From: Odobenus rosmarus divergens
Lineage: Eukaryota; Chordata; Mammalia; Carnivora; Odobenidae
Reading direction: 5' to 3'
NCBI RefSeq assembly: GCF_000321225.1
Contig: NW_004450563.1
Coordinates: 717,329-781,328, forward strand
DNA length: 64,000 bases
The notes beneath the pieces are model-generated. The model saw only the letters and a program-made list of their open reading frames with translations, did not search any database and was not told the origin of the DNA. The translations under genes were made by a program, and so were the position numbers. This document shows positions 30,329 through 64,000 of this stretch, one piece after another. The stretch's first letter is position 1, and every line of letters starts with the position of its first letter.

Positions 30329-30403
30329 TTATTATAATTATGTAATTTATTTTTAGGCCATTTATTTTAAGAGCTCTTGAAACTTGTTATAGGAGGATAC
30401 CTT

Positions 30404-31836: not shown

Positions 31837-31879
31837 GATCAGTTTAATTTGATGAATGAATTCAAGTATTATTATTTTT

Positions 31880-33470: not shown

Positions 33471-33534
33471 TGTCTCAACAATCCTTTGTATTTTAAAATT
33501 ATAGATTTTGCACAGTCCTAATAAATCCATCCTT

Positions 33535-38750: not shown

Positions 38751-38754
38751 TTTT

Positions 38755-38816
38755 TGTATTAAATATTTCCTGTGTACTTAATATATGCTAGCTACTCTTA
38801 CTGATTAATATCAAAT
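38755..38816 (+). repeat. MIR fragment
   Basis: 'tttcctgtgtacttaatata' and 'tgctagctactcttactgat' resemble the MIR core (ttactatgtgccaggcactg). It is cut on the right by a SINE. Confidence 0.35.
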
Positions 38817-39022
38817 TTTTAAAAAAGATGTATTTATTTTGAGAGTGTGGATATGTGCGCGCAAGTTGGGGGAGGGGCAGAGGGAGAGAGAGAAAAGCCT
38901 CAAGCAGACTCCCTAATGAGTGCAGAGCTCCTCCTGCGACTGGATCCCACAGGCCCTCAGATCATGACCTGAGCCGAAACCAAGAGCCCCCGCTTAACCA
39001 ACTGAGCCACACAGGCGCCCCT
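38817..39022 (-). mobile_element. CAN-SINE, diverged, minus strand
   Basis: Poly-A/T boundary then 'aaagatgtatttattttgag', GA-rich tract, 'tcatgacctgagccgaaacc', ending 'gagccacacaggcgccc'. Higher divergence suggests an older copy. Confidence 0.9.
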
Positions 39023-40145: not shown

Positions 40146-40480
40146 ATGATTTTTTAAGGTCTGATAGTGTGATGATTTCATATATATACATATTGTGAAA
40201 TGTATACAACAATTAATTAACACATGGATCTACTCACGTAGTTTTCATTATGTGTGGGCATGGGGGGCAGGTTGAGAACCCTTAAGATCTATTTTCTTAA
40301 CAAATTTCAAGGACATAATACAGTATTTTTAGCCCTAATCACCATGCTATACACTAGACACCGGAACTTATCATATAAGTAAAAGTTTATACCCTTTGAC
40401 TATACAGTTTTTTCATATACAATTTGCCAGTCATAACTCAATAAAACTTGAAAAATGTTAAATAAATAAATTAAAAGTCA
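40146..40480 (+). mobile_element. L1MA/MB-type 3' end, sense
   Basis: 'gatagtgtgatgatttcata', 'cattgtgaaatgtatacaac', 'cttaagatctattttcttaa', 'caaatttcaaggacataata', 'caccatgctatacactagac' and 'gtttataccctttgactata' follow the order of a well-known mammalian L1 3' UTR. Confidence 0.8.
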
Positions 40481-43155: not shown

Positions 43156-43159
43156 ATCT

Positions 43160-45062
43160 CAACAGCTCAAATGTGGGAATTATAATGTAAAACATGAAAA
43201 GAAATTTAAAAAGAGAATTTTAGGAACCAGTAGAACAATGTCAAAAATTCTAATATTCATGTGATAGGAGTCTGAGAAGGAGAAGACAGATTGCTGCAGA
43301 CAAAAAACAATTAATAATTGAAAAAGTCCGATATTTGGTTAAAAATAAAAATTTGCATATTCAGGAGCACAGCAAACCCCAAATAAAGAAATCCAAACCA
43401 AGTGACATCATAACCAAATATCTGAAACCAAAAATAAAGAAAAAATCTTGTTAGCATTCAGAAAAAAGCAACACATTACGTATAGGGAAACTGGTTAGAA
43501 TAATTTAGCAGATTTCTGATCAAAAGCCATTGAGTCAAGAAGACAATGGGATAACTTTTTTCAAGTACTGAAACAAAAGAATTATCAGTCAGTAAATATC
43601 CTTCAGAAGTATAGGTAAAATAAAATACCTCAAATGAAGGAAAATAGTATTTATTATAATAGTGTTTTAAAAGAAATGCTAAAGGGAATTCCTCATGTAG
43701 ATGGAAGGAGATAGCAGAGGGCATCCTGAAATGTCAGGGATGAATGAAAACCAACATAGATTTTAAATTACTGGGTGAATAAATTATTTTTCAACTCTGG
43801 AGTTTGTAAAAAATGGAAATCTGTTAAAGGCAAAATGATGATATCATCTGATGGGATTCTTAATGTACATAGCTGTAATAGATCTGAAAACTGTATCATA
43901 ATGGGAAAAGATAAAGGGACATATATATTGTAAAGTTTGTATGTTTTATTTGAAGTAACAAAATATTAATTTTGAGTTGGATATGTAATGTTTAAAAGAA
44001 TATTAAGTTTCCTGAAACAACCACAAAAACATTTTAACAATATATAGTCAGAGTGTTAAGAGATAAAGTAAAATGGAATTCTGAAAAAAATGTACAAATA
44101 TTTCAAAACAAAGAAGTAGACATAGTAGTAGAAACAGGAACAAAATCCAAAAGAGATGATGATAATAATAATAATAACCATATTAATTATCACGTTAAAT
44201 GTTCTAGACACATGAATGGTCTAAACATTTAAATGTCAGAGATTGTCAGATTGGAAGTAAAGTTTCAAGTCAATAATTTAAGTGTTACTTAGAAAATGAA
44301 ACCAAAAAAATTCAGACATTTAAACGAAAGGAAGCAATTAGGAGAAAAGCAAAATAAGTAAAATTTTAAAAAGAAAAATAATAGAAAAAATAATGGAAAA
44401 TATGGCTTTTCAAAATGATCAATAAAATTGATAAGCCTGAAGCAACATTGATTAAATAAATAAATACATAAATAAAAGCAATGACACAATCAATATCTAG
44501 ACTAAATATCACTAATGAACCTACAAACCTTAAGAAGCTAATACAAATAATGGGGTGATTTAACAAATGTGTAAGTGTAGTAAAAGAAATGTAAGGCATT
44601 TAGATCAGAAAGGACAATATTAAACAATCCCTATTGAAAGCATAATTATGCAGAAAATCCCATGACTCTGCAAAAAAGCTCTTAAAACTAATGAGTTAAT
44701 TTAACAAGATAAATATATAAATGTCAACCATATATTTATATAGTAACAATAAAATGTTGGAAACAATATTTAAAATATCAGTACCATTTACAATAACTCT
44801 AGAAAAAATGAAATACTTAGATATAAATCTAACAAAATGTGTGTAGGACCCATATGCCTAAAACTATAAAATGTTGATGAAAGAAATCAAATATGACATA
44901 AATAAAAGAAGAGACGTAGTATGTCATGGGTAGGAAGATTTATATAGTTAAGATTTTAATTCTTCCTAGTTTGATCTTTGGATTTAATACAATTCGAATT
45001 AAAAAGAAAAAGCAGAAAGGCTAATGTAGATATTGACAAACTATTTGCAAAATTTATATAAA
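43160..45062 (+). mobile_element. old L1 body, sense (ORF1-like to ORF2), decayed
   Basis: 'gtgataggagtctgagaagg', 'ttcaggagcacagcaaaccc', 'gatcaaaagccattgagtca' and 'tcagtaccatttacaataac', then 'gaaatacttagatataaatc' and 'tggatttaatacaattcgaa', are ordered sense-strand L1 landmarks. It continues after the SINE at 45079 and again after the DNA transposon at 45966, so one old L1 spans about 43.2-46.9 kb. Confidence 0.65.
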
Positions 45063-45078
45063 AAAAGCAAAGTTTATA

Positions 45079-45255
45079 GGGATGCCTGTGTGGCTCAGTT
45101 GATTAAACATCTTACTCTTGATTTCGCCTCACGTCATGATCTCAGAGTAGTGAGATCTAGCCCTGTATCAGGCTCTGCGCTGGGCATGGGGCCTATTTAA
45201 GATTCTCTCTCTCCTTCTCCTCCTGCCCCTCCCACCCCAAAAATAATAATACTGA
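45079..45255 (+). mobile_element. CAN-SINE, diverged, inside L1
   Basis: Head 'gggatgcctgtgtggctcag', body 'catgatctcagagtagtgag', CT tract, A-rich tail. It interrupts the L1 ORF2 region. Confidence 0.88.
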
Positions 45256-45965
45256 AAAAATAAAATACAGGAGTTGTCATTAAAAACAAAATGTATAGCC
45301 AAAAATGAGTGAAACAATAATGAATAGCCAAGAATTCTGAAAAATGTATCAATTTGGAGGACTCATACCACCACTCACTCACACCAATTTCAAGATTTAT
45401 TATAAAGTTGAAGTGGTTATGATAGGGTGATATTAGCTAAAGAATAGATATGTAGGTCAATGAAACAGAGTAGAAAATCCAGAATTGTACCTGCACAAAT
45501 ATATCAGCTGATTCTTGGCAAAAGTGCAATAGTAAATCAATAGCAAAAAGGCAATATTTTCAATAATTAGTTTTAGAACAAGTAGACATGCATGTTCAAT
45601 AAAAGGAACATCAACCTATACCTCATAATGCATAGAAAAATTAAAACAAATCATAAACCAAGCGTAAAATGTTAAACTATAGACTCTTTAAGGAAAGCCT
45701 AGGAGAAAATCTTTATGACCTCATTTTAGACCAATTCTTCTCAGATACAACACGAAAAGCAGATCCATAAACAGCAACAAACAAAACCTGCAAATTAAAC
45801 TTCATCAAAATTGAAATATTTTACTCTATAAAGAACACTTTGCTCTTTGTACAAACACTTTGTAAAGAGAATTAAAAAGCAAGCCACAAACAGGGAGTCT
45901 CTGCAAATTACATATCAGACAGAAGATTTATATCCAGAATATATGAAGAATGCTCAAAGTAAGTA
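45256..45965 (+). mobile_element. L1 ORF2 continuation, sense
   Basis: 'caatgaaacagagtagaaaa', 'tgattcttggcaaaagtgca', 'taaaggaaagcctaggagaa'-like wording at 45690-45706, 'ttaaacttcatcaaaattga' and 'atatccagaatatatgaaga' are L1 ORF2 C-terminal landmarks. Stops and frameshifts abolish coding. Confidence 0.75.
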
Positions 45966-46607
45966 CATTTGATTTTAATTATCTATGATAGTTCTGTCTG
46001 TAGAGTCATCACAGACACTGAATTACTGAACAGAGAACATTGTTCCTAGGGGAAATACAGGGTTCAGTTGCTAAGGAGTCTCTGATTAAAACATTTTCTT
46101 TAACTGACCAATACATAACCTTGTTTTATATGTGTTTCTGCTTTAAGACATCTTATTTAATACACAGTGTTGAAAAATTAAAATTGAAATAACAGCCAAC
46201 AGCACCATAATGCATATCTGGAGAAAGCTTACCTAGCTTATGCCTTTTCTCCGTAAGGCACATAGTATCTTTCTCACACTCATGAACATTACGCATCATT
46301 TCAGCATTACAGTTGAAGGACGTTTTAATCAGTGAAATCACCAACAAAACACACAAAAAATGTGAAAAGCATTGCATTAAATACACTGTCAAAAGTAAAC
46401 TTGAGTCTGAAAGCTAAAACAATGAGGTAGACGGTGCCTGTACCTCACCTGGGAACACGCATTTTGAGTGAATCGAATTTTTTACTGCTCTGCACACATG
46501 GATGTATACAAATGATGTTGAGTATTGATTTCAGAATTACTAATACATTTTCACAAATACGCTAATTTGCAAATACAGAATCTGTGAATAATGAAAATTG
46601 ACTATAA
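45966..46607 (+). mobile_element. Tigger/MER2-like DNA transposon (non-autonomous), inside L1
   Basis: Ordered marks of a pogo/Tigger-group element: 'gacactgaattactgaacag', 'cctaggggaaatacagggtt', 'accttgttttatatgtgttt', 'acattacgcatcatttcagc', 'gaaatcaccaacaaaacaca', and a right end 'gaatctgtgaataatgaaaa' + 'ttgacta'. L1 ORF2 resumes right after it, so this is an insertion into L1. No transposase frame is seen. The family name is from memory of consensus wording. Confidence 0.6.
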
Positions 46608-46895
46608 ATTAACAACCCAGTAAAAATATTGGCGAAAGTTTTGTGCAGATATTTAAACAAATATATATATACAAATAGCAAAGCACATGGAAGTTGTTCA
46701 ACCTTATTAGTCATTTGAAAGAATTAAAGTTCAAAATTAGACACCATTACACAACTAAAAGATCTAAAATTTACATATATTTGCATAAATTATATATACA
46801 CACAGGCATAACAATATCAAAAGTTAGGATTCAGAGCAATTGGAATTCTCATGCATTGATAATAAGATGCAAAATGTTATAGGTACCCTAGGGAA
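46608..46895 (+). mobile_element. L1 ORF2 end, sense (resumed)
   Basis: 'taaattaacaacccagtaaa', 'agcacatggaagttgttcaa', 'ttagtcatttgaaagaatta' and 'tcaaaattagacaccattac' continue the same ORF2 after the DNA transposon. Confidence 0.7.
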
Positions 46896-46909
46896 ACTAT
46901 TTTGTTTGT

Positions 46910-47941
46910 TCTATTTGTTTTGTTCTTTTTCACTTTGCTATTCTTTTTCTACCTACTTAAGGCAAAGATGAGGTCATTGATTTGAGACTTATTTTTATTC
47001 TCTATTGCAGATGTTTTGTTTTACAAATTTTAACTCCTGAGTGTAGCTCTAGCCCATATTTTGATACATTGTGTTTTCATTTTTATTCAGATTAAAATGC
47101 TTTATCTTTCCCTTTTAATTTCTCGTTTGACTCATGGGATATTTAGAAATGTGTTAATTATTTTCCAAATAAGCTACAGAAGTATTTTAGAGATCTTTCT
47201 ACCATTGACTGATAATTTTTCAGAAAATGTGCTTTGTATTATTTGAATCTTTTAAATTTGATGCCTGTTTTATTGTCCAAAAAACTGTCTTTCTTGGTAA
47301 ACTTTCCATGCACACTTGAAAAGAATGCATTTTCTGTTGTCATTGGGTGAAGTATACCAAAAATGCTTAGTAAGTCATCTTGGAAGATGGTATTATTCAT
47401 CTTTTCTATATATTTTGTGATTTTCTGTCTATTTGTTCTATCAGTTATTGAGAGGGCAATATTGGCATTTGTGCCTGTAATCGTGGATTTGTCTATTTCT
47501 GTTTGCAGTGTTATCAGTGTTCTCATACATTTTAAAGCTACATTACTAGTGCATAAATATTTAGTATCTTTATTTCTTGTTGATGAATTGATTCCCTTAT
47601 AAAGAAATAAGCTTCTTTATTCCTGGTAATTTCCTTCCGTGTTGCATCATTTTCAGTACTTTTAATTTTACCATATTTGTGTTGTGAAGTGTGTTTCTTA
47701 TAGGCAGCACATACCCAGTCTTTTTCAAATGCACACTAATAATCTCTGCCTTTTAGTTGGTATATTTTAAATACTTACATTTAATGTGAACATTGATAAG
47801 GTTAGGTTTAATTCTAAATCCTTGTTATTTGTGTGTATATGTTTCATTTGTTCTTGTACTCCCATTTCTCTCGTTTTTTAAAAAAATAAGTGCCTTTTAT
47901 GATTAATTTCATCTCTTTTGGTGGTCTATTAATTATTCTCA
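46910..47941 (-). mobile_element. old L1 ORF2 5' part, antisense
   Basis: Plus-strand view of antisense ORF2: 'aactttccatgcacacttga', 'aaagaatgcattttctgttg', 'ttctatcagttattgagagg', 'tgatgaattgattcccttat', 'ttataggcagcacataccca' and 'aataatctctgccttttagt'. The frames at 47239-47526 (minus) and 47363-47602 (plus) are remnants and shadows. Confidence 0.7.
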
Positions 47942-48470
47942 AAGAAAAATTGACTGGATGGGTTGAAACAAGCATGGAAGATTTTACTCAAGATTACTAC
48001 AATATAGAGCAAGACTATTACAAAGGAGAGATTGCACTCAAGTCCACTAAAACAAATGGGAGAGTTTTTAAGTGCTGAGGTGAGCTAGGAAAAATACTGG
48101 AGGCCTTTAGGGGGGAAGTTGCTCAATGAGATTAAGACACCTGTGTTTGTTAATTGGTGCTTAAAGAAGTTAGGCCTCTTTGAAGCCTTCCGCAGAAACT
48201 GGGAGATTGGGGGTACTATTTTTTGATGATTATATTTCAAAGGAATGGCTCTCAGGTACTTGTGAAAGATATTACTGGGGGTAAAACTGGCAAGACACCA
48301 GGAGAATATTTACATCTTGAAAAGGCAGAAAAGGAATTTACATTTGCAAGTTTCATAGAATAAATGATCAAGGAAAAGGAAGGTCAGGGGCCTATAGTCA
48401 AAAAGAAACCTATCTAAAATTTAGTCAAACTGAGGGGAACATTAAGACCATCTTGGTCAATATAACTTTA
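47942..48470. mobile_element. unclassified insertion splitting an antisense L1
   Basis: L1 antisense sequence stops near 47941 and resumes near 48470. Between them is about 530 bp of unlike composition ('ggttgaaacaagcatggaag', 'ggcctttaggggggaagttg', 'gacacctgtgtttgttaatt'), with LTR-like wording that I cannot name. Confidence 0.4.
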
Positions 48471-49960
48471 CTTCATTTCAGTGGTTGCTTTAGTATATAT
48501 CCAAAATTTATCAGTCTACCTTTTAGTGATACTATACCACTTCAGGTACTGTACCACTTCAGGTACTGTATAAGAAGCTTAATTTGCGTATTTTCATTAA
48601 ACCATTCTTTTGTACTACCAGTGTGATATATTTTATTTTTACGTACATTGTAAACCCCATACTCCATTGTTATCATTTCTGTTTAAGCATTCAATTCTAT
48701 TTTAATAAGATTTACTAATAAAAACATTGTTTACATACAAAATTAATATCTTCATTGCTCTACCTTCCTTTGTATAAATTTATATTTTGTCATGGCGTCA
48801 TTTCCCTTTAGTGTAAAAGACTTTCTGTAACATTCTTGTAGTGTAGATCTCTGATTTCTTTTAGATTTGGATAGTTTTAGATAATTTATTTTTCTTTGTT
48901 TTCTATTTTGGTAACCTTTATTTGTTTCCTGCAGTTTCCAATCTATTATTAATCTCCTAGAGTGTAGTATTATCATATCCATTATAATTTTCATCTCTCA
49001 GGAGTTCAGTTTGTGTTTTTCAATATCTTTAGTGCTTCTATTTAAGTTTCTGAACTTATGAAAGATAGACATAATAATAGTGTTAATGCTTTGGCCTTCT
49101 AATTCTAACATTTCTGTCACTTTTGGGTCCGTTTTGATTGATTGATTTTTCTCATTATTATGAATTGCATTTTTCTGCCTTTTGGTATGCCTGGTATTTT
49201 TTGTTTGGATGTCAGATATTATTAATACTTTGTTAGTTGTTGGATATTGTTTTGTATTATTGCTGTTTTTGAGGTTGGCCGGGTGTAGTTATTTGGAACT
49301 AGTTTGGTCCTTTTACATATCGCTTTTAGGGTTATTTGGTTAGATGATAGCTCAGCCTGAATAATCATCCTCACTTCCATTACTAAACTCTTCTGAATCC
49401 TTTATTTAATGCCTTATGAGTCATGAGGTTTCTCATCTGTCTAAGAGAATGATGTCCTATGTGAGCACTGGATACGGTTCCCTCTACTCTCCTCAGATGG
49501 TTCTTTCCACTGTCTTAGGTTGTTTCCCCACAGCATGATTAATTGATTAATATTCAGCTGCATACACAAGGGGGACCATCTTCAGGTCTCTGGAATTTTC
49601 TCTCTGTGTAGTTCTTTCCTCTCAGGGACTTCGTCTTTCTTACTTAAGATGTCTTAGTCTCTATGTTCTCTCAGCTCCAGCTCCTAAAATTAACATGCCT
49701 ACCAGGCTCCAACTGGCTTTCCTCTCCCTTTACCATTGGTCAGAAACTCTATCAACAGAGTAAGCTGATGTAGTTTCAGGGCTTGTTTCCCATTTCTCAG
49801 TGTTGATTATATTTAATTTCCTGATGTTTAATGTCCAGTCTGATGCCTGATGTCTTGAAAACCACATTTTTAAAAAAATTTTGTTTATTTTGGATTGTTT
49901 CAAGTAGGAGGTTAAATACATTTTGGCCAGTGGTAGTTTCAAACATATTTTTTTATTATT
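48471..49960 (-). mobile_element. old L1M/HAL1 5' part, antisense
   Basis: Resumes with 'ttcagtggttgctttagtat' and 'actataccacttcaggtact', then 'tctccatctctcag'-type linker wording, 'ttctgccttttggtatgcct' and 'ttggatgtcagatattatta', and ends in a GC-richer stretch (49580-49860) resembling the antisense 5' part of ancient L1. No coding capacity remains. Confidence 0.5.
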
Positions 49961-51500
49961 GAAAATGCAGTGAAATCCATTTTCACTTAATTTCCAAAGT
50001 ACAATTGTCAGGCTGAGTGAGGAAGACATATAACCACCTAGGAGAGGCACTTTTGTTATTAACATGATGGCCCTGAAGAATATGAAAAAAAATCTGTTAT
50101 TTAGAAAAATGCTAAAGGTTTTTATCTTGCCATTAATTGATTTCTTTCAGAAAGTTTTCTGTAATTTACTTAAATATCCCAATATTTTTTATACATACTC
50201 TGCCAGGGAAAATAAAAAGAAGATTCTGTCAAAAAGAAATCCCAGCATGTTAGTTATATCTATTTTATTTTGACTGACCCATGGCTTTAAAGTCTGTAGA
50301 GTATTACATTTATAAGACAAACAGGATTTCATTCAAAATAAGTGATTTGATTGGCAACAGATTCTGTATCTGACTACAGGCACAAACCATCATTCCATCT
50401 GATTTCTAGTGGATTTTTTTGTACTTGGACTCGATTTTCCAACTCCCTGGCTTGCATAAATCTACATGAATACATTTTAAAGTTATATTAGAATATCCAT
50501 TTTCACTGTAAATCTCAATATTCCCTATAACACCAGGAGGCTGCCTTACCAGTCAAAAAGTAAAGGACAATGTCCTATATATTGAGACTGGTATGTATTA
50601 GGTAAAGGGATTTGATATGAAGATTGGCTTGAATATCCCAAAACTTGTTTTGTTAAAACTAATGAAAAAATGACTTACGGTGGAATTATCTTCATTAAAA
50701 CAAAATTTCATGTATTTAATTAAAACAAAATTAAATGTAAATTATATATAAAGTATATAATCAGTTAATCATGCTGTGGGGAAACAACCTAAGACAGTGG
50801 AAAGAACCATCTGAGGAGAGTAGAGGGAACGTATCCATAAGTTTTAATTAAGCATATAATAAATGCAACTCATTACAGCACGTGCTTTTTTATATAAGTG
50901 AAGCAGCACTACCACTATTTCTAATCTGAAAATGCTTGCCACATTCTCCTCAAAATCCTAGTTTCATTCATGAAAACAAAGGGATATGCCTATGTGTATA
51001 TAAAGCACTATTTCTACATGTAGAGAATAGAATCACAGCCTGAAAGAATGCTATTATTCATCTCAATCTATATCTTTTCAAAAATTTCAATCTCAGAGGT
51101 AAAAAATGCTTAAGATATTTTTTCCCAATTTCTCTGGAGGCTTACTTTCGAAGGTTAAGTGAATACCAAAATGTTACTCTTTGTTTTTTGGTTTTTTGTT
51201 TTGTTTTTTGATATCTATGTGTACCACAAGAGTCCATATACCCTACTTTGAAGCTATGCTTTCTGCTGTTTCTTGCTGCTTGTGTCTCCTTCTAATCTGG
51301 CTTGCTTTTAACTCTTTTTTTTTCTTTTAGTTCTTTATCTGTGCAATTCCTTGGAGTCTTATGTTGAAAAGACATGACTTGCCTGCTAGCTTTCAAAAGT
51401 CACAAATGAAATGAACTTAGGAACTTGAGATATCCTGGTGCTAACTGCAAAGAACTTTCCTAAATGCTGTAGTTGGGGCAGTTAATTACATAAACCTGTT
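49961..51500. other. unassigned non-coding DNA
   Basis: No gene or repeat is recognised. A TG-poor (GTTTT)n-like stretch lies at 51180-51210. Confidence 0.4.
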
Positions 51501-51743
51501 AAAACATGATAACATAGGGACTCCTGGGTGGCTCAGTCGATTAAGCATCTGCCTTTGGCTCAGGACACGATCCCAGGGTTGTGGGATCCAGTCCCACATC
51601 AGGCTCCTTGCTTAGCAGGAAGCATGCTTCTCCCTCTGCCTGCCACTCCCTCTGCTTGTGCTCGCTTGCTCTCTCTCTCTCTCTCTCTGACAAATAAATA
51701 AATAAATAAATCTTTAAAAAAATAAATAAAACATGATAACATA
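51501..51743 (+). mobile_element. CAN-SINE with perfect 16-bp TSD
   Basis: TSD AAAACATGATAACATA lies at 51501-51516 and 51728-51743. Head 'gggactcctgggtggctcag', tail (AAAT)n. Confidence 0.95.
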
Positions 51744-52062
51744 ATAAAATGATGGGAAATACTGACTGACATATAAGAAAAAGACCCAACATTAATTTAG
51801 TGGGTTGTAAATGCATTATTGATTTTGTTCCTTAAGAACATGCTTGAAAGACAGTAAAATCCATTATTCTACAGTAGCATTTTAAAATCCAGTTATAAAC
51901 CATATCATAGTAAAATTCTTAGAACATAAATAACTTGAGAAGATGTGTTTTAATTTAATATTGAAAGTAAGAAAAAAGAGTTCAACTGTAAACTTTGGAC
52001 TTCTAAATTTGTGGGCCAATTTACAAATTAAAACTACTACAGAATTTTCTATTATTAAAAGT

Positions 52063-52285
52063 AGGGAATGCCTGTGTGGCTCATTCAGTTAAATGCCTGA
52101 CTCTTGGTTTCAGCTCAGGTCGTTTATCTCAGGGTCATGAGATTGAGTCCCATATCGGGCTCCATGTTCAGTGTCGAGTCTGCTTGAGATTCTCTCCCTT
52201 TCCCTCTCCCTCCCCCTTTGCCCCTTTACCTGCTCACATGCTCTCTCTCTATTTCAAATAAATGAATAAAATATTAAGAAAAAAA
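52063..52285 (+). mobile_element. CAN-SINE, older subfamily
   Basis: Head 'gggaatgcctgtgtggctca', body 'cctgactcttggtttcagct' (older variant), tail 'aaataaatgaataaaatatt'. No clear TSD. Confidence 0.9.
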
Positions 52286-54060
52286 GGAAATGTTAAAGGA
52301 TTACTTATAAAGTGTTTAATGTATTAGTTAACAGCCAGAGTTAGCTCCTATACTTTATAGTATTGACATCTTAGTGGGTCATAGAATGTACACATAATAG
52401 ATAACTGTATGTTTAGCATAATATAAGTTCTTCAGACATTGTTTAGCACTTTAAAAAATAGCAATGCCAATCACAGATGTACTATCTAATGAAGTCTTCT
52501 TGTGGGATATAGCATTTGAATTCATCGGGGATTAAAAAGATACTAAAACAAAAAAAACCTCATAAAATAAAAACAACAACAAAAAACGTTGAGCAAAATA
52601 CAGTGGTTGTAGGTCAGGGGAAAACCAGAACAATTCTGAAATTACTAAATTCATGTGTATAATCTTGGGGCATCTAGAAATTAAAATACATGTCTTCTTT
52701 AAAACTTCGCTTCCAGCCACCTCTATGTGGATCCTGCAAACTCAACTGGTAGGACCGAACATGAATAACATGCTGTAATATTTTTCTTCAGTCTTTTGCT
52801 ATCTAAAAACTTAAGGCAGTTTGTTATATTTGCATACCTTTCCTGAGAGGGAATGCTTATATTCAAGCACATAGACTCTGCAAAAAGACACCATGGTGCA
52901 TATAGCCTCAAACGTGCTTGAGGTCTAGAGGTGGGTATCCTTAGATTCAGATTCTGATTCCACCACTCATAAATTCTGTCATGTGAGATAAATATTTGAC
53001 CTCAACAAATGCTGGATTTCTCATCTATAAAATAAGAAATATTTATAGGAATAAAGACATAATCTGTATAAATATACAGTGTTTGAAAATATCTCATGTT
53101 GTGCTTGATGGATACAACTTGTCATCTTCATATTTTATTCCCCCTTTGTGCTACTCAAGAAAACACTACAAAAGGATCTTTAAATACATCTACTAACTAA
53201 TGTAAATACTGCAGTATTTTATTTATTCCCTAGTTGTATCCAAACACCATAAATCAAGATATTCTTGTCCACTATTCATGACCTCCATTCTGAAGGCTAA
53301 ATTTTGAACCCTGCAAATATGAATACACGCACACACACACACACACACACACATTATTGGCTTATCATAAGACACAATCCACTTCAAATCTCTATAACAC
53401 AACAATTTGGCTTTCGTTCTACTATAACATACACTATTTTTTTTTTTCAGTAAGGATATTTAAACCTGCCTGGATACTTTGTGGATATTAGTAATGTCCA
53501 GACAGGTGAAAAGCTATAAAAATTCTATAAAAAATTTACTGACAAATAGCAGCATGCTGCAAGAGACTCTTTCCATATAGAACATTCAATTGGGAAAACT
53601 GTTTTGTCATCCTTTTACCAACAGTTTAGAAACTCTGAATATTTTGAATTGCTTACTTAAAGATGCTCTAGCATGAATACATTTTAGTAATGATGGAATA
53701 GTTGGCCTGATTCACCCACTCACAGATAACCATTATAAACTCTGAAAAATTATATAAAAATAACCGTTTGAAGGTTAAAGAATGATTTAAAGAGTAACCC
53801 CCCACAATGCAGAAATTGAAGGGACATGGACACTAGAAGACATGAAACTACTGAGATTTGCCTTTGTAAGTCTTTTTGCCTGAGAGAAATACAGTCCTAA
53901 ATGTGTAATATGAGCAGAGAAAGTACTCCAAAATCTGTATATATACGCTGCATAAATATTTGATAAATCTTTGACCACTGAACTGCATCTACACAGAGGA
54001 AACTTCACGTTTCCCAGAAAAAAAGAAATAGCTGGAAGTCTAGAAGAAAAAGAAACGAAA
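52286..54060. other. unassigned DNA with one (CA)n tract
   Basis: Apart from the (CA)n microsatellite listed separately and short A-runs, no gene or repeat is recognised. Confidence 0.4.
53325..53353 (+). repeat. (CA)n microsatellite
   Basis: About 14 CA units. Confidence 0.92.
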
Positions 54061-54302
54061 AGAAAAAGAGTAGAGATTTTGGGACACCTGTGTGGCTCAG
54101 TAGGTTAAGCGTCTGCCTTCGGCTCAGGTCATGATCCCAGAGTCCTGGGATCGAGTCCTGCATCGGGCTCCTTGCTCAGTGGGGAGTCTGCTTCTCCCTC
54201 TGCCTGCTGCTCCCCTTTGCTTGTGCTCTCTCTCTCTCTGCCAAGTAAATAAATAAAATAAAATTCCTTTTTAAAAAGGAAAAAAGAAAAGAGTAGAGAT
54301 TT
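54061..54302 (+). mobile_element. CAN-SINE
   Basis: Head 'gggacacctgtgtggctcag', body 'catgatcccagagtcctggg', flanked by near-identical copies of 'agaaaaagagtagagattt' (54061-54079 and about 54285-54302). Confidence 0.94.
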
Positions 54303-54899
54303 CATTCATGGCCCACCATAGGGGAGGTAGAGTTTTGGTATATAAATTGAAGAGAGTTCCTGCCCTCTAGTACACAAAATCAACACTACTGAAAGGGAAA
54401 TAACAGACTTCAGTTCTCTACTATTACTATCCACAATGATAAACCTCATAATAATCTACAGGAAATGATGGAAATAATGAGTGAAGAGAAGTATGATTTA
54501 TGGATGCAAATTGAAACTATAGGAACAAGGACTAAGTGGTTAGTCTACATAATAAAACACAATAAATGAAATGAAAAATTGCCCTCATTAGTTTACTAGC
54601 AGATCATAGATGGCAGAAGAAACATCAATATACTTGAACACAAAATAATGAAATTGTCTTTCTGTTCCTCTGATTAGATAAAGAGGAGCAGACAGACAAT
54701 AGAAAGACAGAGACTTTTTTTTTTTAATGAGACCAGTTTCAAAGGCCAATGGGACAAAATGAAGTCTAACGAATTTTTTTAAATTTTATTTTATTATGTT
54801 AATTATGTTTAAAAGAAAAATACCCATGGGGTAAAAGGTGTGTACTGTAATATCATAACATTTTGCTGGACTATTAGTATTGAGCACCTTATGCTTAGT
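54303..54899. other. unassigned non-coding DNA
   Basis: No feature is recognised. Confidence 0.4.
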
Positions 54900-55165
54900 T
54901 GCCGAGCATTTGTTTAAAACTTTTCTCCGTTAAAGGTAAAAACAAATTAAGTTGTTTGCTTTTTATTATTGAATTTAAATATGATTTATATATTCTAGGT
55001 ATAATTCCATTATCAGATATATATTTTGCAAATATATATTCCAATAATTTTCTTAATAGCATCTTTTTTATCTTTAAACCTTTTTGAGTTTATTTTTGTG
55101 TACAGTGTAAGAAAGTGGTCCAGTTTCATTCTTTTGCATGTAGTTGTCCAGTTTTTCCAACACCA
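54900..55165 (-). mobile_element. L1 ORF2 fragment, antisense
   Basis: 'gtttatttttgtgtacagtg', 'aagaaagtggtccagtttca' and 'ttcttttgcatgtagttgtc', ending 'ccaacaccatttattga', form the standard plus-strand view of antisense L1 ORF2. It is broken at 55165 by the next L1 3' end. Confidence 0.75.
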
Positions 55166-55411
55166 TTTATTGATTTTTTAAATTTTTTAATTAATTTATT
55201 TTTGGTTTTATTTAAATTCAAGTTAGTTAACATATAGTGTATTATTAATTTCAGGGTAGAATTTAGTGATTCATCAGTTCCATATTACATCTAATGCTCA
55301 TTACATCAAGTGCCTTCCTTAATGCCCATTACCCAGTTACTCCATCTCCCCACCTACCTTCTCTCCAGCAACCCTCGGTTTGTTCTGTATGGTTTGTCTC
55401 CCTCTGTTTTT
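55166..55411 (-). mobile_element. L1 3' end (copy A), antisense
   Basis: A T/A-rich start, then 'agttagttaacatatagtgt', 'gattcatcagttccatatta' and 'ctccagcaaccctcggtttg'. It is a 5'-truncated 3' UTR of the carnivore L1 group. Confidence 0.75.
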
Positions 55412-56527
55412 TTTTTTTTTAATTATTAACATATAATGTATTAACTGTTTCAGGGGTACAGGTCTATGATTCATCAGTCTTACACAATTTGCAGCGCTCA
55501 CCATAGTACATACCCTCCTTAATGTCCATCACCCAGCCACCCCAGCCCTCCCACCCCCCTCCACTCCAGCAACCCTCAGTTTGTTTCCTGAGATTAAGAG
55601 TCTCTTATGGTTTGTCTCCCTCGCTGGTTTCGTCTTTTTTCATTTTTCCTTCCCTTCCCCTATGATCCTCTGTCTTGTTTCTCAAATTCCTCATATCAGT
55701 GAGATCATATGATACTTGTCTTTCTCTGATTGACTTATTTCACTTAGCATAATACCCTCTAGTTCCATCTACATCATTGCAAATGGCAAGATTTCATTTT
55801 TTGATGGCTGCATACTATTCCATTGTATATATATACCACATCTTCTTTATCCATTCATCTGTGGATGGACATCTAGGCTCTTTCCACAGTTTGGCTATTG
55901 TGGACATTGCTGCTATAAACATGGGGGTGCATGTGCCCCTTCGGATCACTACATTTGTATCTTTGGGGTAAATACCCGGCAGTGCAATTGCTGGGTCATA
56001 GGGTAGCTCTATTTTCAACTTTTTGAGGAAGCTCCATACTGTTTTCCAGAGTGGCTGCAGCAGCTTGCATTCCCACCAATAGTGTAGGAGGGTTCCCCTT
56101 TCTCCGCATCCCCGCCAACATCTGTCGTTTCCTGACTTGTTAATTTTAGCCATTCTGACTGCTGTGAGGGGTATCTCATTGAGGTTTTTGTTTGTATTTC
56201 CCTGATGCCGAGTGATGTTGAGCACTTTTTCATGTGTCTGTTGGCCATTTGGATGTCTTTTTTGGAAAAATATTTGTTCATGTCTTCTGCCTGGATGTCT
56301 TCTTTGGAAAAATGTCTGTTCATGTCGTCTGCCCATTTCTTGAATGGATTATTTGTTCTTTGGGTGTTGAGTTTGATAAGTTCTTTATAGATCTTGGATA
56401 CTAGCCCTTTATCTGATATGTCATTTGCAAATATCTTCTCCCATTCTGTCGGTTATCTTTTCGTTTTGTTGACTGTTTCCTTTGCTGTGCACAAGCTTTT
56501 TATCTTGATGAAGTCCCAATAGTTCAT
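55412..56527 (-). mobile_element. L1 3' end and ORF2 C-terminus (copy B), antisense
   Basis: Poly-T (55409-55421), 3' UTR ('aacatataatgtattaactg', 'gattcatcagtcttacacaa') and then about 850 bp of ORF2 on the minus strand. It is broken at about 56527 by copy C. The 3' UTR resembles copy A but is a distinct, younger sequence. Confidence 0.85.
55815..56336 (-). pseudogene. L1 ORF2p C-terminal fragment, frameshifted pseudogene
   Basis: ORF2p is the endonuclease/reverse transcriptase that copies L1 and SINE RNA into DNA. Only its C-terminal end is here. The 173-residue minus-strand frame contains the Cys-rich C-terminal motif ([16 protein letters not shown]), then [20 protein letters not shown] and WIKKMWYIYTME, near the normal protein end. 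The N-terminal third of this frame is not the ORF2 frame. The matching residues there ([23 protein letters not shown]) lie in the overlapping frame 56015-56323, so a frameshift near 56160-56180 splits the gene. A 42-bp in-frame tandem duplication (56251-56292 and 56293-56334) doubles the HFSKEDIQ segment. There is no start codon context, catalytic domain or promoter, so it is non-functional. Confidence 0.85.
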
Positions 56528-56763
56528 TTTTTAAAAATTTTTTTATTGTTATGTTAATCACCATATATTACATCATTAGTTTTTGATGTAGTGTTCCATG
56601 ATTCATTGTTTGTGTATAACACCCAGTGCTCCATTCAATACGTGCCCTCTTTAATACCCATCACCGGGCCCCCCCATCCCCCTCCCCACCTCCCCTCTAG
56701 AACCCTCAGTTTGTTTCTCAGAGCCCCCCCTCTCTCATGGTTCATCTCCACGTTATCTTTGTT
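56528..56763 (-). mobile_element. L1 3' end (copy C), antisense
   Basis: The exact reverse complement of the 3' end at 8550-8866: 'atgttaatcaccatatatta', 'catcattagtttttgatgta', 'cctctagaaccctcagtttg'. It is inserted into the ORF2 of copy B. The C-block lattice begins within it (56669). Confidence 0.85.
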
Positions 56764-57000
56764 TTCTTTGATATTTTACCCCCCCGGTATTATATATAAG
56801 AATCTGCCTAACCTAAGAGGAAATGATATTTTCCCCCCCCTTTACTTTCTAAAGTTTATTGTTTTAGGGTTTATGTTTAGGTTTATGCCAAGCAAAAATA
56901 GAGTATGAAGTAAGGATAAAAGTTCATTTTGTTTTTAGGCATGGGTTTCTGATGGTCCAGTACCATTTGCTAAAAAGATTTAATTACCTTGGAAATTTTC
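56764..57000 (-). mobile_element. older L1 ORF2 fragment, antisense
   Basis: 'gtttattgttttagggttta', 'tgtttaggtttatgcc', 'aaaagttcattttgttttta' and 'gtccagtaccatttgctaaa' are a diverged antisense L1 ORF2 segment, older than copy B. Two C7 blocks interrupt it (56779, 56834). Confidence 0.55.
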
Positions 57001-58088
57001 TTGAAAATTTTCATTCTGTTTAAGAAAAATTACAAAAATGTTTATAGCATTTTTATTTATAATTTCCAAAAGCAGTAAACAACTTGGTCGTAATATATTA
57101 TCAATTAATGTATTTCCAGATACTTACTAACATTTTTTTAACAAAATTTGCATCTAAGTTTATAAAAAAAAATATCTGTAGCTCATTACTTTTCCCTCTC
57201 TCCCTCTTTCCCTTTCCCCCCCCCCTTTTATTGTATTTTCCAATAGCCCATTGTCTGATCAACCAGGGCACTTCCCCCCCATTTTAAGGGTTAGAGTAGA
57301 CTTTGTCATTCTGACAATGGTGTTAGAGCAACCTTAAGCCTATTGCCAGTACTCCTTTTCTCTCTTTCCAACAGTGGGGTGGGAGTGATGCAGGAGAATA
57401 TATCTTAGTCTAAAGAATATTGAGGAAACCCTAGTGGTCCCCCCCTAAAGACCAGTAGCAAGTCAGTGTCACCCAATCTGTGTTACTGGATGACATTGTT
57501 TTGTAGGGCCATGAATGTGTCTCCCTTGTACTTCTTTTTCTCTTCATCCCACAGTGGTCAACAGACACTTCTCCTTTTCTTTTTGCTTTTTTTTTCTTCC
57601 CCACCCCCCCTTCATTTGAACTACTACCCCTTCAAAGTACATGTAGTTTTAAATCTTTTCCCTGTAGGCCATGATCTCATCATAGGACACTATGTTAGTA
57701 TCTTCATTTTTGTAGTGTTTTTGGATCAACCTTAAGCCAATTACTAGCTTTTCCTTTCTGCCTTCCCTTCAGTGTGGTAGGGATGGGCAAGAACATGAAA
57801 AAGTGTGTGGTAGACTTTCTTTTCCCCCCCCTCTCTCTCTCTCTCTTTTTTTTTTTAAGCATACAGTTAATTTGATATTTGTACATTTTTCAGCTACACC
57901 AAAGGTATGGTGTTGTGTACTTTTCCTTTTCCTCCCCCCCTTGCATTTGGAAGATATTTTTGGAGGTGGAGCATACATAGTTGCCTATTCATCCTCTCTT
58001 CCCACTAATTCGTGGCAACCATTGACCTTTTTATTGTCTCTATCCCCCCCCATTTTGTAGAGTGTTATAGAGTTCAGTCATACAGTGT
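57001..58088. repeat. unassigned DNA with a diverged tandem duplication of about 400 bp
   Basis: Two segments align by eye: 57318-57400 ('gagcaaccttaagcctattg', 'cttttctctctttccaacag', 'tggggtgggagtgatg') and 57714-57795 ('ggatcaaccttaagccaatt', 'ctttctgccttcccttcagt', 'gtggtagggatgg'). The offset is about 396 bp. I cannot name the family. Ten C7 blocks lie in this stretch. Confidence 0.4.
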
Positions 58089-58089
58089 C

Positions 58090-58460
58090 TTAGTCTGTCC
58101 CCCCCTGCTATAACAAAATACTGCAGCCTGGGTGGCTTATAAACCACAGAAATCCCCCCCTCATACTTCTAGAGGCTACAAAGTCCAAGATCATGGCACT
58201 GGCAGATTCAATGAGGTGGATGGTGAGAGGCCATAATGGTTCATAGAGGGTGCCTTCTTACTGTGTCCTCACATGATAGAAGGTGCTAGGGAATCTCTCT
58301 AGAGTCTCTTTTATAAGGCCCCCCCTCATTCATGAGGGCTCCACACTCCTAACTTAAGCAATTACAAAGTCCCCCCCCCCTAATATCATTACCTATGGGA
58401 GTTGGGATTTCAGCATGAATCAGGGGCAGGAGGGGTATAAACATTCAGATCATAGCATAC
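58090..58460 (-). mobile_element. MaLR-type LTR (MLT1/MST group), antisense
   Basis: 'tgctataacaaaatactgca', 'cctgggtggcttataaacca', 'ctgtgtcctcacatgataga', 'gagtctcttttataagg', 'cattcatgagggctccacac' and 'aacattcagatcatagca' are the plus-strand view of an antisense MaLR LTR. The filled slots at 58099, 58154, 58319 and 58374 overwrite conserved positions of it. Confidence 0.7.
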
Positions 58461-58532
58461 GCTCTGTAACCTTTTCAGATTGGATTCTTTCATGGAGTAA
58501 TATGCATTTAAATTTCTCCATGTCTTTTCATT

Positions 58533-58660
58533 ATATGATTTTTGTAAGATTTTATTTTTTAAGTTATCTCTCACCCAGTGTGGGGCTTGAACTCACAACC
58601 CCAAGATCAAGAGTCACATGCTCCACAAACTGAGCCAACCAGGTGCCCCATATGATTTTT
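58533..58660 (-). mobile_element. short CAN-SINE variant, minus strand
   Basis: 'agattttattttttaagtta', 'cagtgtggggcttgaactca', 'caaccccaagatcaagagtc' and 'gagccaaccaggtgcccc' make a tRNA-like SINE without the long CT tract. TSD ATATGATTTTT lies at 58533-58543 and 58650-58660. No filled lattice slot falls inside. Confidence 0.85.
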
Positions 58661-58699
58661 AGAGTAGTGAAACTGTATTATAGTGATTTGGGTACATGT

Positions 58700-58950
58700 C
58701 CTTCCCCCCCTGTCCAAACTCATAGATCAGTAGTTAATTATAATGTAAACTGTGGACTCCCCCCCATTATGATATGTTATTGTAGGTTCATCAATGGTAG
58801 CAAGTGTACCACTGTGGTGGGGGATGTTGATAATGGGGGCGGCTATGTATGTGTAGGGTCAGGGGCTACCCCCCCAATTTCTGTACCTCTTGCTCAATGT
58901 TGTTGTGAATCTAAAACTGCTCTAAAACTAAAGTCTATTAAAAATGTAAT
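58700..58950 (+). mobile_element. L1M-type 3' end, sense
   Basis: 'agtgtaccactgtggtgggg', 'gatgttgataatgggggcgg', 'ctatgtatgtgtagggtcag', 'gttgtgaatctaaaactgct' and 'aaagtctattaaaaat' follow a known ancient L1 3' UTR. C7 blocks at 58704, 58759 and 58869 overwrite parts. Confidence 0.7.
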
Positions 58951-59640
58951 TCATTTCAGATAAGTTCTATGACAAATAATATAGGTGGGCTATGAAGATT
59001 AATATAGGCAAAGTTATGAATAGTTATAGGGAACCCCCCCATGGTATTATCAGACAAGACTTTTCTGATGAGACGGCATTTGAGCAGACCCCCCCGTTAT
59101 CATGAGAATGAACAAGTGGGTATTTCAAGGAAGACTGATCCAAGGGGACAGCAATTGCAAAGGGCCTGAATTTGGAGTATGCTGTTATTTTAATGGACCC
59201 CTCAATTCTGCTCAGTAAATATTATTGACTATATGAATTGTAAGTCATTACATCCCCCCCTCTACAAGTTGATAAATTAACTCATAACTCATAACATTTG
59301 CAAATAGTCCCCCCCAAGAATTATTATATGTAGAGTTAGACTATAATTCAAAAGAAGCTATAGCCCCCCCCAATAACAGGAGATTCTGGGCACAACTGCT
59401 AAAGTAAATTGTAATAAATCATTTTTATAAAACATTTTCTTAGTTTCTAAAATAAGCATAACAACAGTGAAAAACATCATTGCTTTTGAAACTACATTTC
59501 CAAATTTTAAAAACATTTTCATATGAAATTTGTTATTTTCCTGACAATTCTATGAATGGGGGGGGAAGTAGTGCTTATTTCACCCCCCCCGGCCATTGTA
59601 TTCTCAATTTTACAGACCTATATGAATTACCCATACCACA
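58951..59640. other. unassigned DNA, probably old mammal-wide repeat debris
   Basis: 'ggcatttgagcagac' and 'gacagcaattgcaaagggcc' look like an old dispersed repeat that I cannot name. Seven C7 blocks and one off-lattice G8 run (59558-59565) are present. Confidence 0.4.
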
Positions 59641-59779
59641 AATTTCTGTATCTTAATGAAATGCTTTGAGTTCTTACTATGAGCCAAGTATTTTATATTT
59701 TCTTTTGTAATCACAGTGCTACTGTACAACAGGTGTTATTTTATTGTTCCCCCCCCTGAAGATCAGAAGTGTTATTTAA
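59641..59779 (+). repeat. MIR relic
   Basis: 'agttcttactatgagccaag' and 'caacaggtgttattttattg' match the MIR core layout. The C7 block at 59749 sits where MIR normally reads the 'ccattttac' region. Confidence 0.5.
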
Positions 59780-60006
59780 GACTAGGGTGACACAGGGGCA
59801 CCTGGGTGGCTCAGGCATTAAGTGTCTGCCTTCAGCTCGGGTCATGATCCCAGGGTACTGGGATCAAGCCCAGCATTGGGCTCCCTGCTCAGTGGGAAGC
59901 CTGCTTCTCCCTCTCCCACCCGCCCTACTTGTGTTCCCTCTCTAGCTCTCTCTCTGTCAAATAAATAACCCCCCCCTTAAAAAAAAAAAAGACTAGGGTG
60001 ACACAG
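59780..60006 (+). mobile_element. CAN-SINE with perfect 16-bp TSD; tail overwritten by C7
   Basis: TSD GACTAGGGTGACACAG lies at 59780-59795 and 59991-60006. Head 'ggggcacctgggtggctcag'. In the tail the expected 'aaataaataaataaaatctt' reads 'aaataaata' then C8 and 'tt' (59969-59976), i.e. seven bases replaced beside a native C. Confidence 0.95.
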
Positions 60007-60149
60007 TTGTATCTGTATAAATGCCCCCCCTCTCCAGTTATTATGACTATGTCATAGACATAGATTTATATTGATTTGCCCCCCCATATTCATTGAAAAT
60101 GAAAATATATTTATTTAGTATACTTAATGAAAACTTAAGTATGCATAAT

Positions 60150-60340
60150 TATTGCTATTCATAGCACTACAAGTATGATGGTATAACACCCCCCCGTTTC
60201 AGATACGGTAGTGTTATCTCATATGACACCTTATTTGAATGGACCCCCCCTTAATAAGATAGGTACAACAGACATTAAAGTGCCAGTTTTACAAATTAAT
60301 GCTCAGAAGTGCGATTGAGAAAAGTCCTACAGCAATTAAA
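60150..60340 (+). repeat. MIR relic
   Basis: 'gtgttatctcatatgacacc', 'agataggtacaacagacatt' and 'gccagttttacaaattaatg' follow the MIR order. Slots 60189 and 60244 are overwritten by C7. Confidence 0.45.
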
Positions 60341-60810
60341 TGGTACTCAGTAACCCCCCCGTAAGTTTTCTATTAAGCTTGCAAGTCACATGGCCAAAGA
60401 CATGTATACCCCCCCAGACGTGTGAATGATATCATTCAAATTAAAATCTAATTTTCCTCTTTTCCCCCCCATTGTAAATAATTTTATGTCATATCCTTTG
60501 ATCATAATTTTGGAACTTAATTTAGGAATCTTAAAAATTAGAGAAAGTTAATAATGTATCTATGACAATGAAGTTTCCTAAACATAGCCCAATTTATTAC
60601 AGATGCAGGGGCCTTTGTGTGACATTCATTATTTGCTGTGGCTGACATAAAATTTGGCTGAACCTGTTCTCATATTACTAGAGTTTATTTTTAGTTTCAT
60701 AAAAAATAATTCTAAGTATATAGTGTAATTCATTACCTCCCCCCCAATTAAAGATTTTGTTGTTTATTGTGAATAAGCAAATATGCAAATCTGGAATGGT
60801 ATGTTACTAC
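60341..60810. other. unassigned DNA
   Basis: No feature is recognised apart from C7 blocks at 60354, 60409, 60464 and 60739. Confidence 0.4.
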
Positions 60811-61006
60811 GCCCAGTTTTATTATTTATTTATTTATTTTTTAAAGATCCCCCCCTTAATTGAGAGAGAGAGAAAGAGAGGGGAAGAGGGAGAGGGAGAA
60901 GCACCCCCCCTGCTGAGCTTGATCCCAGGATCCCAGGATAATGACCTAACCCAAAGGCCCCCCCCTAACTGACTGAGCCACCCAGGCAACCCTAAGCCCA
61001 GTTTTA
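60811..61006 (-). mobile_element. CAN-SINE, minus strand, overwritten by three C7 blocks
   Basis: TSD GCCCAGTTTTA lies at 60811-60821 and 60996-61006. Three consecutive filled slots (60849, 60904, 60959) fall in it. Elsewhere the sequence is near consensus ('atgacctaacccaaagg', 'ctgactgagccacccagg'), with a native deletion in the middle. Confidence 0.92.
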
Positions 61007-61883
61007 ATATGAAGGCAGTGTTTTGAATTTTTGGCATCAACAGTTACTGAATGAAAAATCATTTAAAGACAACATGTCTGAAGCATGTCTCATGGAGAGA
61101 AGACCAAACTCTCCTAAAAAGTCCCCCCCCAATGAAGTAAACATGACTGAGGTATAATATAATTTATAATGGAATTTTCCCCCCCTAGAGTATTATTGAG
61201 TTCCTGCTCCACTGGAATATTTGCTTATAGATACACTTCAAATTGCATTTGTGTTTATAAAGATGATTTTCCTGACTAAAATCTCTTTACTTACCAGTGC
61301 AAAATGAGTAAAATATTGCATTACAGTACTGCTTCATTTATTCTACCAGTATTAATTGTGGAACTCTGAGGAACTCCAGGGAAACAAAAGAAATGACACC
61401 CCCCCTATTCTAGAAACTCTCCATTTCAGATTTTCTAGGTAGTTTCTAAATTTTAGCATAAAATTACCTATTTTAGACCTGTGGCAATCTTTTTATCTTT
61501 ATATATTTCTCTTTACAGAAAAAAAAACATGTAAATTTTAGGACATTAAGGAATTATTTATTCTAAGGGATGAATAAACAATAAATTGCCTATTTTATAG
61601 CAAGTGGATACTTCAGTACCCCCCCAAGTTGAGTAATTTCCATCTACATTGGATGGTGTGGAGGTTGAGTTAGCCCCCCCTTAATGGAGGAACATACAAA
61701 AACAGGAAGCCTTCTTTGCCTACCATCTCTACACAATACAGTTTTTAACACTGAATCAGTTATTCATTCCCCACTGCCTTTTCTCATATAATTTCTCATC
61801 AGAATCTTAACACCTCTCATGTCAAAATATTAGACATTGTCATGACAATGTTATCTTGGAGATGGTAAAGAGGAACTATTTTA
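61007..61883. other. unassigned DNA
   Basis: No feature is recognised except C7 blocks at 61124, 61179, 61399, 61619 and 61674. Confidence 0.4.
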
Positions 61884-62110
61884 AAGAATGTGGCTGAGGG
61901 GCGCCTGGGTGGCTCAGTTGGTTAAGCGGCTACCTTCGGCTCAGGTCATGATCCCCAGGTCCTGGGATCGAGTCCCATGTCAGGCTCTCTACTCAGCAGG
62001 GAGTCTGCTTCTCCCTCTCCCTCTGCCTGCTGCTCTGCCTACTTGTGATCTCTTCTATCCCCCCCACATAAATAAAATAAAAATCTTAAAAAAAGAAGAA
62101 TGTGGCTGAG
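61884..62110 (+). mobile_element. CAN-SINE with perfect 15-bp TSD
   Basis: TSD AAGAATGTGGCTGAG lies at 61884-61898 and 62096-62110. The head 'gggcgcctgggtggctcagt' is consensus. One C7 block (62059) sits in the CT/tail junction. Confidence 0.95.
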
Positions 62111-62389
62111 ATGCCCCCCCTCTTGTTCTCCTTTATATATTTCTGTTGTGTGCCTAAGGTAGAAGACACACAGTAAGAAGCTTCATAGGCTATATCCTAA
62201 GCAATATGAGCCCTTCATGAATTTTAGCATAACTTGCTAGGGAACTACCCTGGGATATAGGAAAATACTTCAAAGCAATAAAATGTTAGCATTTACTGGA
62301 CTTAAAGACACAAAAAGGAGCCAAAAGCTTCTACCCCCCCTAATGCAAGAAAATATTCAATTGAGACTCACCATATCTCAATCACTGTC
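62111..62389. other. unassigned DNA
   Basis: No feature other than C7 blocks at 62114 and 62334. Confidence 0.4.
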
Positions 62390-62510
62390 CCCCCCGATTT
62401 TAAGTTATTTCATTAATTATTTCAATGATCACTAAAGTAATTATTTTTAGCCACATTTTAAATATAAGGAAACTGACCTGGAGTAGTTTTCCCAACTTGT
62501 AAAACTAACA
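62390..62510 (+). repeat. MIR relic
   Basis: 'ttttagccacattttaaata', 'taaggaaactgacctggagt' and 'agttttcccaacttgtaaaa' match the MIR 'attttacagatgaggaaact ... cttgcccaaggtca' order. Confidence 0.5.
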
Positions 62511-63150
62511 TATAACATAGTATAGTTTGCAACATATTTTACTTTCATTGCATATTCACTGCTCTTTTCACACATCATCATAGCCAAATCTTTCTAATTG
62601 AATTAATGAATATGTAAAGAATCTCTGTGAAAGTATTCACACTTTCTTATGCTGTTGTAGTAAAGATTTGTTTTTTGTTTTTGTTTTTTAGGAATTTTTT
62701 TTCAGGAAATGAGAATCAATATCATACATAGAACGTTATTTGGGTCATTATAGTCTACAATAAAGATAAAAGTTTAAATCACATATTTTTATCCCTTTTA
62801 TTCAAAAGCCTCAAAGAATCTCAAGTAGGAAGAAAATAAAATATATACTAAAATGTGATTCGAGAAATAGTGTCCTTTGAAAAAAGTTATGATATGTATG
62901 GGATACTAAAATTTAAATTATGGCTAATTTAATGCTTGACTTATTTTGTTCAGTGTTCCACAGAGAAATAATCATTGTCTAAGTTGTAAAATATAGAGGA
63001 CAAGAAAAAAAACTCTTATCACAATTATAATCACCTCTTTTTTTTTTTCCCCCCCCTTAGTGAGAAACCTAATGTCACTGAGAAAAAAAGAGCTAAAATT
63101 GGCAGATATTTTGTGTATTAACATTCATGGTATTAATAGTAGGGAGGAAA
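62511..63150. other. unassigned AT-rich DNA, lattice nearly empty
   Basis: Slots 105-115 are all unfilled here, the longest gap in the lattice. The block at 63049 is the only filled one. No gene or repeat is recognised. Confidence 0.4.
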
Positions 63151-63385
63151 GAATTATTAAGGGGCACCTGGGTGACTCAGTTGGTTAAGCGTCTGACTCT
63201 TGATTTTGACTGAGGTCATGATCTCAGGGTGCTGAGATCTAGCCCTGCACAGGCTCCATGCTCAGCAGGGAGTCTGCTTGGGATTCTCTCTCTTTCTCTC
63301 TCTGTCCCTCCTCCCACTGGTTCATGGGCAAGCTCTCTCTCTCTCTCAAATAAATGAATAAATCTTTTAAAAAATGAACCCCCCC
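63151..63385 (+). mobile_element. CAN-SINE; right TSD overwritten by C7
   Basis: Left TSD GAATTATTAA (63151-63160), head 'ggggcacctgggtgactcag', tail 'aaataaatgaataaatcttt'. The right flank reads GAA + C7 (63376-63385), exactly where the 10-bp TSD should be, with its last seven bases replaced. Confidence 0.93.
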
Positions 63386-63727
63386 TATGATACCATTAGG
63401 ATTCCAGAGTTTTATGTCTTCAAATATTAAATACCCCCCCATAAGCTAAAGAGTAGTCTCTGAAAGAAATGTCCATTATAATAATTTTGATACTGAATGA
63501 GATAATTGTAATTTATATGATAAACTATAAAAATGCAAACTGTGAAAATTCAAATTGTAAAAGTACAGAACAATTTATGCATACGCTTATAAGAATTTTA
63601 CCTTAAAAATTAAAAAGCACACATAAAATTCATACACACATAAACATTAGGCCCACACTTACTTATTAATTTAATGTAAATACAAACAAAAAACATTCAG
63701 GATGACAACCCCCCCGTATCTTCTTTT
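63386..63727. other. unassigned AT-rich DNA
   Basis: No feature other than C7 blocks at 63434 and 63709. Confidence 0.4.
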
Positions 63728-64000
63728 TTTTTTATTCTTTTAATTATATTCTTTTTTACTGTTCCCCCCCTATTATGTTAATCACCATACATTACATCAT
63801 TAGTGTTTGATGTAGTGTCCCCCCCTTCATTGTTTGTGCATAACACCCAGTGCTCCACGCAGAATGTGCTCTCCCCCCCCCCCATCACCAGGCTAACCCA
63901 TTCCCCCACTCTCCTCCCCTCTAGAACCCCCCCCCTGTTTTTCAGAGTCCATCGTCTCTCATGGTTCGTCTCCCCCTCCGATTCCCCCCCTTCATTTTTC
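63728..64000 (-). mobile_element. L1 3' end, antisense, heavily overwritten; runs off the window
   Basis: Same 3' UTR as 56528-56763 and (sense) 8550-8866: 'tatgttaatcaccatacatt', 'catcattagtgtttgatgta', 'cataacacccagtgctccac'. Five consecutive filled slots (63764-63990) replace conserved stretches. The alignment stays in register throughout. Confidence 0.88.

Follow-up and report, generated by a model that had tools for sequence, protein, structure and literature searches.

The last 7.3 kb of the DNA stretch shown above, from Odobenus rosmarus divergens, is overlaid by a lattice of 7-base C blocks at a constant stride of 55 bases, and similar lattices are found in other contigs of the same assembly. 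We consider it very probable (about 0.9) that the lattice is a software artefact of genome assembly, that is, a contig-building or finishing fault, and not biology. This reading is favored by the in-place overwriting of repeats, by a stride specific to each contig together with differences in block width and strand, and by lattices that reach contig ends.

Layout of the C7 lattice

The window, meaning the whole 64-kb stretch that was analyzed, corresponds to positions 717329-781328 of contig C300 in a 2.378-Gb assembly of 2085 contigs. Its runs of seven or more C (C{7,}), 55 in number, all lie within 56669-63990, leaving positions 1-56668 without any, and every one of them covers a slot starting at 56669 + 55k. 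The run begins exactly at the slot start in 47 cases, and in the other eight it begins 1-3 bases early, with C preceding the block. The coordinates, count and period of the original prediction, 55 C7 blocks on a 55-bp lattice, are therefore right. C7 blocks at other residues modulo 55, which it had named as evidence against a lattice, do not occur among the window's 55 C{7,} runs. The main features of the window are listed in the table below.

Table. Features of the C7 lattice and of the remainder of the window (positions within the window)
Feature	Position	Strand	Basis
C7 lattice: 7-base C blocks, stride 55, 55/134 slots occupied	56669..63990	+	C-run listing, phase count
First block, k=0, within LINE-1 piece	56669..56675	+	Repeat-copy comparison
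Block k=60, SINE tail	59969..59975	+	Repeat-copy comparison
Block k=130, LINE-1 piece	63819..63825	+	Repeat-copy comparison
Last block, k=133, 10 bases before contig end	63984..63990	+	End comparison with C13
Unaffected part of contig C300, no C7 run, no lattice	1..56668	.	Run and period scan

Up to the end of the window, slots k=0 to 133 are available, 41% of which are still C, and the remaining 79 hold ordinary sequence; occupancy is all-or-none. The tail contains no out-of-phase C runs of six or more and three out-of-phase C5 runs. Triplets of consecutive in-phase blocks were observed 11 times, compared to none in 100 dinucleotide shuffles. When homopolymer runs of at least six bases were scanned at periods of 20-129, no comparable period was found for other letters in the tail, nor for any letter in positions 1-56660. 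Occupied slots show mild clustering, with 28 adjacent pairs versus a shuffle mean of 22.2 (p 0.028), and base preference in and around the slots showed nothing clear beyond the T-rich 3' neighbors of occupied slots. The sole G run of seven or more in the tail, a G8 at 59558-59565, is off the lattice phase (29) and is probably ordinary. A 42-base tandem duplication is located at 56250-56333, in the LINE-1 piece that immediately precedes the lattice.

The lattice can be followed no further than the window, as the next base opens a run of 19,122 N. Beyond this 19-kb gap, an isolated in-phase C7 is seen at C300:809252, accompanied by two other downstream C7+ runs that are out of phase. The in-phase run may be a coincidence, the chance of which is roughly 5% given three such downstream runs.

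Ordinary sequence replaced by the blocks

The sequence of the tail is ordinary mammalian-looking DNA with dispersed repeats, and SINE and LINE-1 copies are found in its spacers; the tRNA-type SINE and the LINE-1 are presumably carnivoran. The tail was compared with other repeat copies in the window, and pairs were kept at a flank identity of at least 16/20. SINE or LINE-1 copies span 11 of the 55 occupied slots (the other 44 have no copy), giving 37 aligned pairs. Identity inside the slot was 32% for these 11 occupied slots, versus 82% for nine unoccupied slots (55 pairs). At the first block, four window copies have CTAATTC, CTAACCC, CCACCCC (with a gap) and TTACTCC. The block at k=60 stands where two copies with 20/20 flanks have ATAAAAT without any gap and four further copies align with gaps in the A-rich SINE tail, and at k=130 both aligned copies have TCCATGA, also gap-free and with 20/20 flanks. 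Across all 37 pairs, 18 alignments are gap-free and 19 have a gap within the slot or next to it. At the slots that can be compared with repeat copies, the blocks thus replace ordinary bases and the length is kept, since about half of the slot-crossing alignments need no gap. In comparison to the unaffected repeat copies, this in-place replacement is an alteration of otherwise ordinary sequence. In a search for an allelic second copy of 60300-63000, the 40 scored candidates of 6547 gave, besides the region itself, only matches to the SINE part, and a plasmid collection gave no match to 59400-63000.

Besides that of the window, the assembly has at least three further lattices; four were examined in all, those outside the window in part. 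The strides are 55 in C300, 60 in C13, 61 in C172 and 27 in C314, with block widths of 7, 7, 7 and 13, respectively. The lattices span about 7 kb in C300, 35 kb in C314, 45 kb in C172 and 50 kb in C13. The forward-strand letter is C in three lattices and G in one, that of C172, which corresponds to C on the other strand. C13 has C7 every 60 bases (10 of 16 slots occupied in 3020941-3021847), and C172 has G7 every 61 bases (12 of 13 slots in 869507-870245 and 10 of 15 in 914217-915077). In C314, from 187337 onward, C occupies 13 of every 27 bases and the spacers are 14 bases long; all 664 slots read are occupied, comprising 543/543 in 187337-202000 and 121/121 in 219008-222260. At about 869600-869750 of C172, a tandem duplication of approximately 68 bases can be made out by eye under the G7 lattice, and each of its copies seems to show the seven bases lost in the other.

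Replacement is also seen in these contigs. Among 50 runs tested in five stretches of C13 and C172, a repeat copy lies across 12. The clearest examples are G7 in place of TGACCTG in C172 and C7 in place of GAGGGAG and GCTCCAT in C13, with matches at 19-20 of the 20 flanking bases in each case; several of the other tested runs align with gaps. When the C314 spacers were compared without gaps to the SINE copies of the window, 41 of 42 readable bases agreed if the blocks overwrite the sequence, versus at best 44 of 80 if they were inserted into it. Gapped blastn favors the insertion reading for C314 (best 85% over 52 bases, 1e-7, versus 0.12 with the blocks masked), but the worse E-value of the masked reading arises because masked bases are scored as mismatches. 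Insertion instead of overwriting is ruled out by the gap-free alignments and, for C314, by the ungapped comparison.

Assembly-wide, C7N48C7 occurs 9705 times in the forward and 914 times in the reverse orientation, and triplets of C7 blocks at stride 55 number 7501 forward and 13 reverse. By extrapolation, C314 alone would give most of this forward excess, and the strand bias at stride 55 is therefore no independent genome-wide evidence. The three-block search at strides 61-74 had 3556 matches in the forward and 8786 in the reverse orientation, the C172 and C13 lattices being among the matches listed, and these uneven strand counts leave room for further affected contigs.

Contig ends and phase slips

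All four lattices examined have an N gap within 5-13 bases of at least one end, as expected of an assembly artefact, which would follow contig ends and not biological units. The lattice of the window closes 10 bases before its 19,122-N gap, and that of C13 closes 13 bases before an N gap; C13 blocks were seen from 3012001, and N is present at 3010001-3010250. The first block of C172 lies five bases after a 206-N gap, and that of C314 lies 10 bases after a 57-N gap. At the far end of the C314 lattice, 25 bases separate the last 13-base C block from the next gap, and a C7 in the following slot ends four bases before that gap. Against a strict link to contig ends, the other end of the C300 lattice is internal to the contig, with no gap seen. 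The same is apparently true of C172, in which the last block was seen at 915010-915016, no gap is present up to 915100, and seven 250-base samples taken past the lattice, from 916001 to 940250, contain no G7.

The phase of two lattices is not constant. The C13 blocks observed as far as 3038 kb are at phase 0 and those from 3042060 onward at phase 59, and the phase of C172 runs from 0 to 60, then 57, then 58 (part of the C13 and C172 phases were computed by hand from the positions of search matches). These slips amount to 1-3 bases and occur at few places. The segment between 875918 and 876154, in which C172 first slips, contains a T10 run, a kind of site at which indel polishing or a true length polymorphism would give rise to changes of a single base. 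The argument that natural indels would soon break the phasing is sound in principle: the phasing in the window is unbroken over 7.3 kb, but it does slip in the longer lattices of C13 and C172. No slips would be expected if a lattice had been written after the scaffolds were finished, which disfavors writing at that stage.

Several observations concern the sequence at the contig ends. The C13 and C300 lattices end at a common LINE-1 position, ...CCGATTCCCCCCC(T)TCATTTTTC, at which LINE-1 copies elsewhere have TCTTCCCCT or CCCCCCT. At the far end of the C314 lattice, the neighboring contig opens with the same 35 bases that close the lattice-bearing one (C10, 14 bases, C7ATCC), so the C runs at this place are either natural or common to both contigs. 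These 35 terminal bases, at C314:222251-222285 and 222336-222370, are common across a 50-N gap, and since the flanking contigs share them, the gap is probably a missed overlap. The terminal sequences suggest a C-rich contig-end stretch as the template or anchor of the lattice. The template is a weak step, given that LINE-1 copies differ at this position and that the last block and the end C-run are one and the same in C300, C13 and C172.

Origin and consequences of the lattices

In the proposed fault, a contig-building or finishing step would have overwritten the sequence with C runs at a stride that is constant for each contig but differs between contigs. The runs would apparently have a contig end as their anchor and possibly a C-rich contig-end stretch as their template, the latter being the weakest step of the scheme. 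We infer that the writing took place on contigs, most likely before their orientation into scaffolds, because the letter is C in three lattices and G in one. Indel edits made late, after the writing, would be the cause of the small phase slips. Partial occupancy would result from later read-based repair, in which short-read polishing returned some slots to their original sequence. C314 has lost nearly half of its bases, so that no reads would have been drawn to it and the overwriting would have persisted there. A point against the scheme is that stepwise copying of blocks would require a separate, putative repair step for the empty slots. The strides were also considered as odd k-mer lengths (27, 55 and 61), and this idea was dropped on account of the C13 stride of 60. 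More tentatively, the lattices may represent an undescribed failure in which a contig-end homopolymer is stamped over as much as about 50 kb of upstream sequence, with the loss of up to half of the true bases and with polishing partly masking the result.

The original prediction had named file or pipeline corruption, an assembly or polishing fault, and a watermark as possible sources. The evidence favors the assembly fault. A late watermark, or damage to the file once finished, is harder to reconcile with lattices that respect contig ends and slip in phase by small indels. Deliberate marking, in which periodic C blocks were planted in chosen contigs as a watermark, canary or test, would be consistent with the clean stride and width of each contig, and slot occupancy could carry bits. 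Yet the occupancy in the window gives no text in 5-8 bit readings at all offsets, in both polarities and both bit orders, and the 664 filled slots of C314 leave no message there. In addition, lattices that reach contig ends, lie in one case on the other strand and slip by small indels are unlike a mark on finished scaffolds, and we regard marking as very unlikely. An exact period overwritten in place is also what disk, transfer or format-conversion damage with a fixed byte stride would leave in a finished file. Such damage is an even more improbable source, as the stride varies by contig (27, 55, 60 and 61), the lattices begin or end at contig gaps and slip by 1-3 bases, and one of them lies on the opposite strand.

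The only point in favor of a real DNA structure, such as a satellite, a regulatory grid of dispersed elements or the product of mutation that makes C-runs at a fixed spacing, is that the assembly contains the sequence, and we put the probability of such a structure close to nil. The spacing varies between contigs, the blocks cut in place across ordinary SINE and LINE-1 copies, and the lattices reach assembly gaps. C-rich minisatellite and satellite arrays resemble the lattice in their regular period, but Tandem Repeats Finder gives no 55-base array of similar units in the window, and on inspection the spacers are not copies of one another. A CRISPR-like array has a conserved repeat of about 20-50 bases between its spacers; here, only C7 is repeated, in place of bases of dispersed repeats. 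As a control, three C7 blocks at stride 55 were found in 21 viral contigs, each of which has at most five in-phase starts compared to 55 here, and in several of which the in-phase C7 lies in tandem-like spacers.

The assembly fault shares with consensus, gap-filling and polishing errors of draft assemblies that wrong bases are confined to contigs, reach their ends and are accompanied by signs of later indel edits. It differs from such errors in being a strictly periodic overwrite by one base, in place, over 7-50 kb. To our knowledge, no assembler fault of this strictly periodic form has been described. The portions of the literature covered by our search contain no published account of one, and the sections consulted of a fur seal assembly paper (PMC6071602) describe no such fault.

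The lattices are a warning about data quality, as they affect no fewer than four contigs of this assembly and C314 has lost 13 of every 27 bases wherever it was read. Gene models, variant calls and repeat annotation would be disrupted by them. Other assemblies are easy to screen for the signature, which consists of fixed-stride runs of C or G reaching an N gap. If contig-end stamping is indeed the cause, it would mean silent damage to many contigs, and perhaps to other genomes from the same pipeline.
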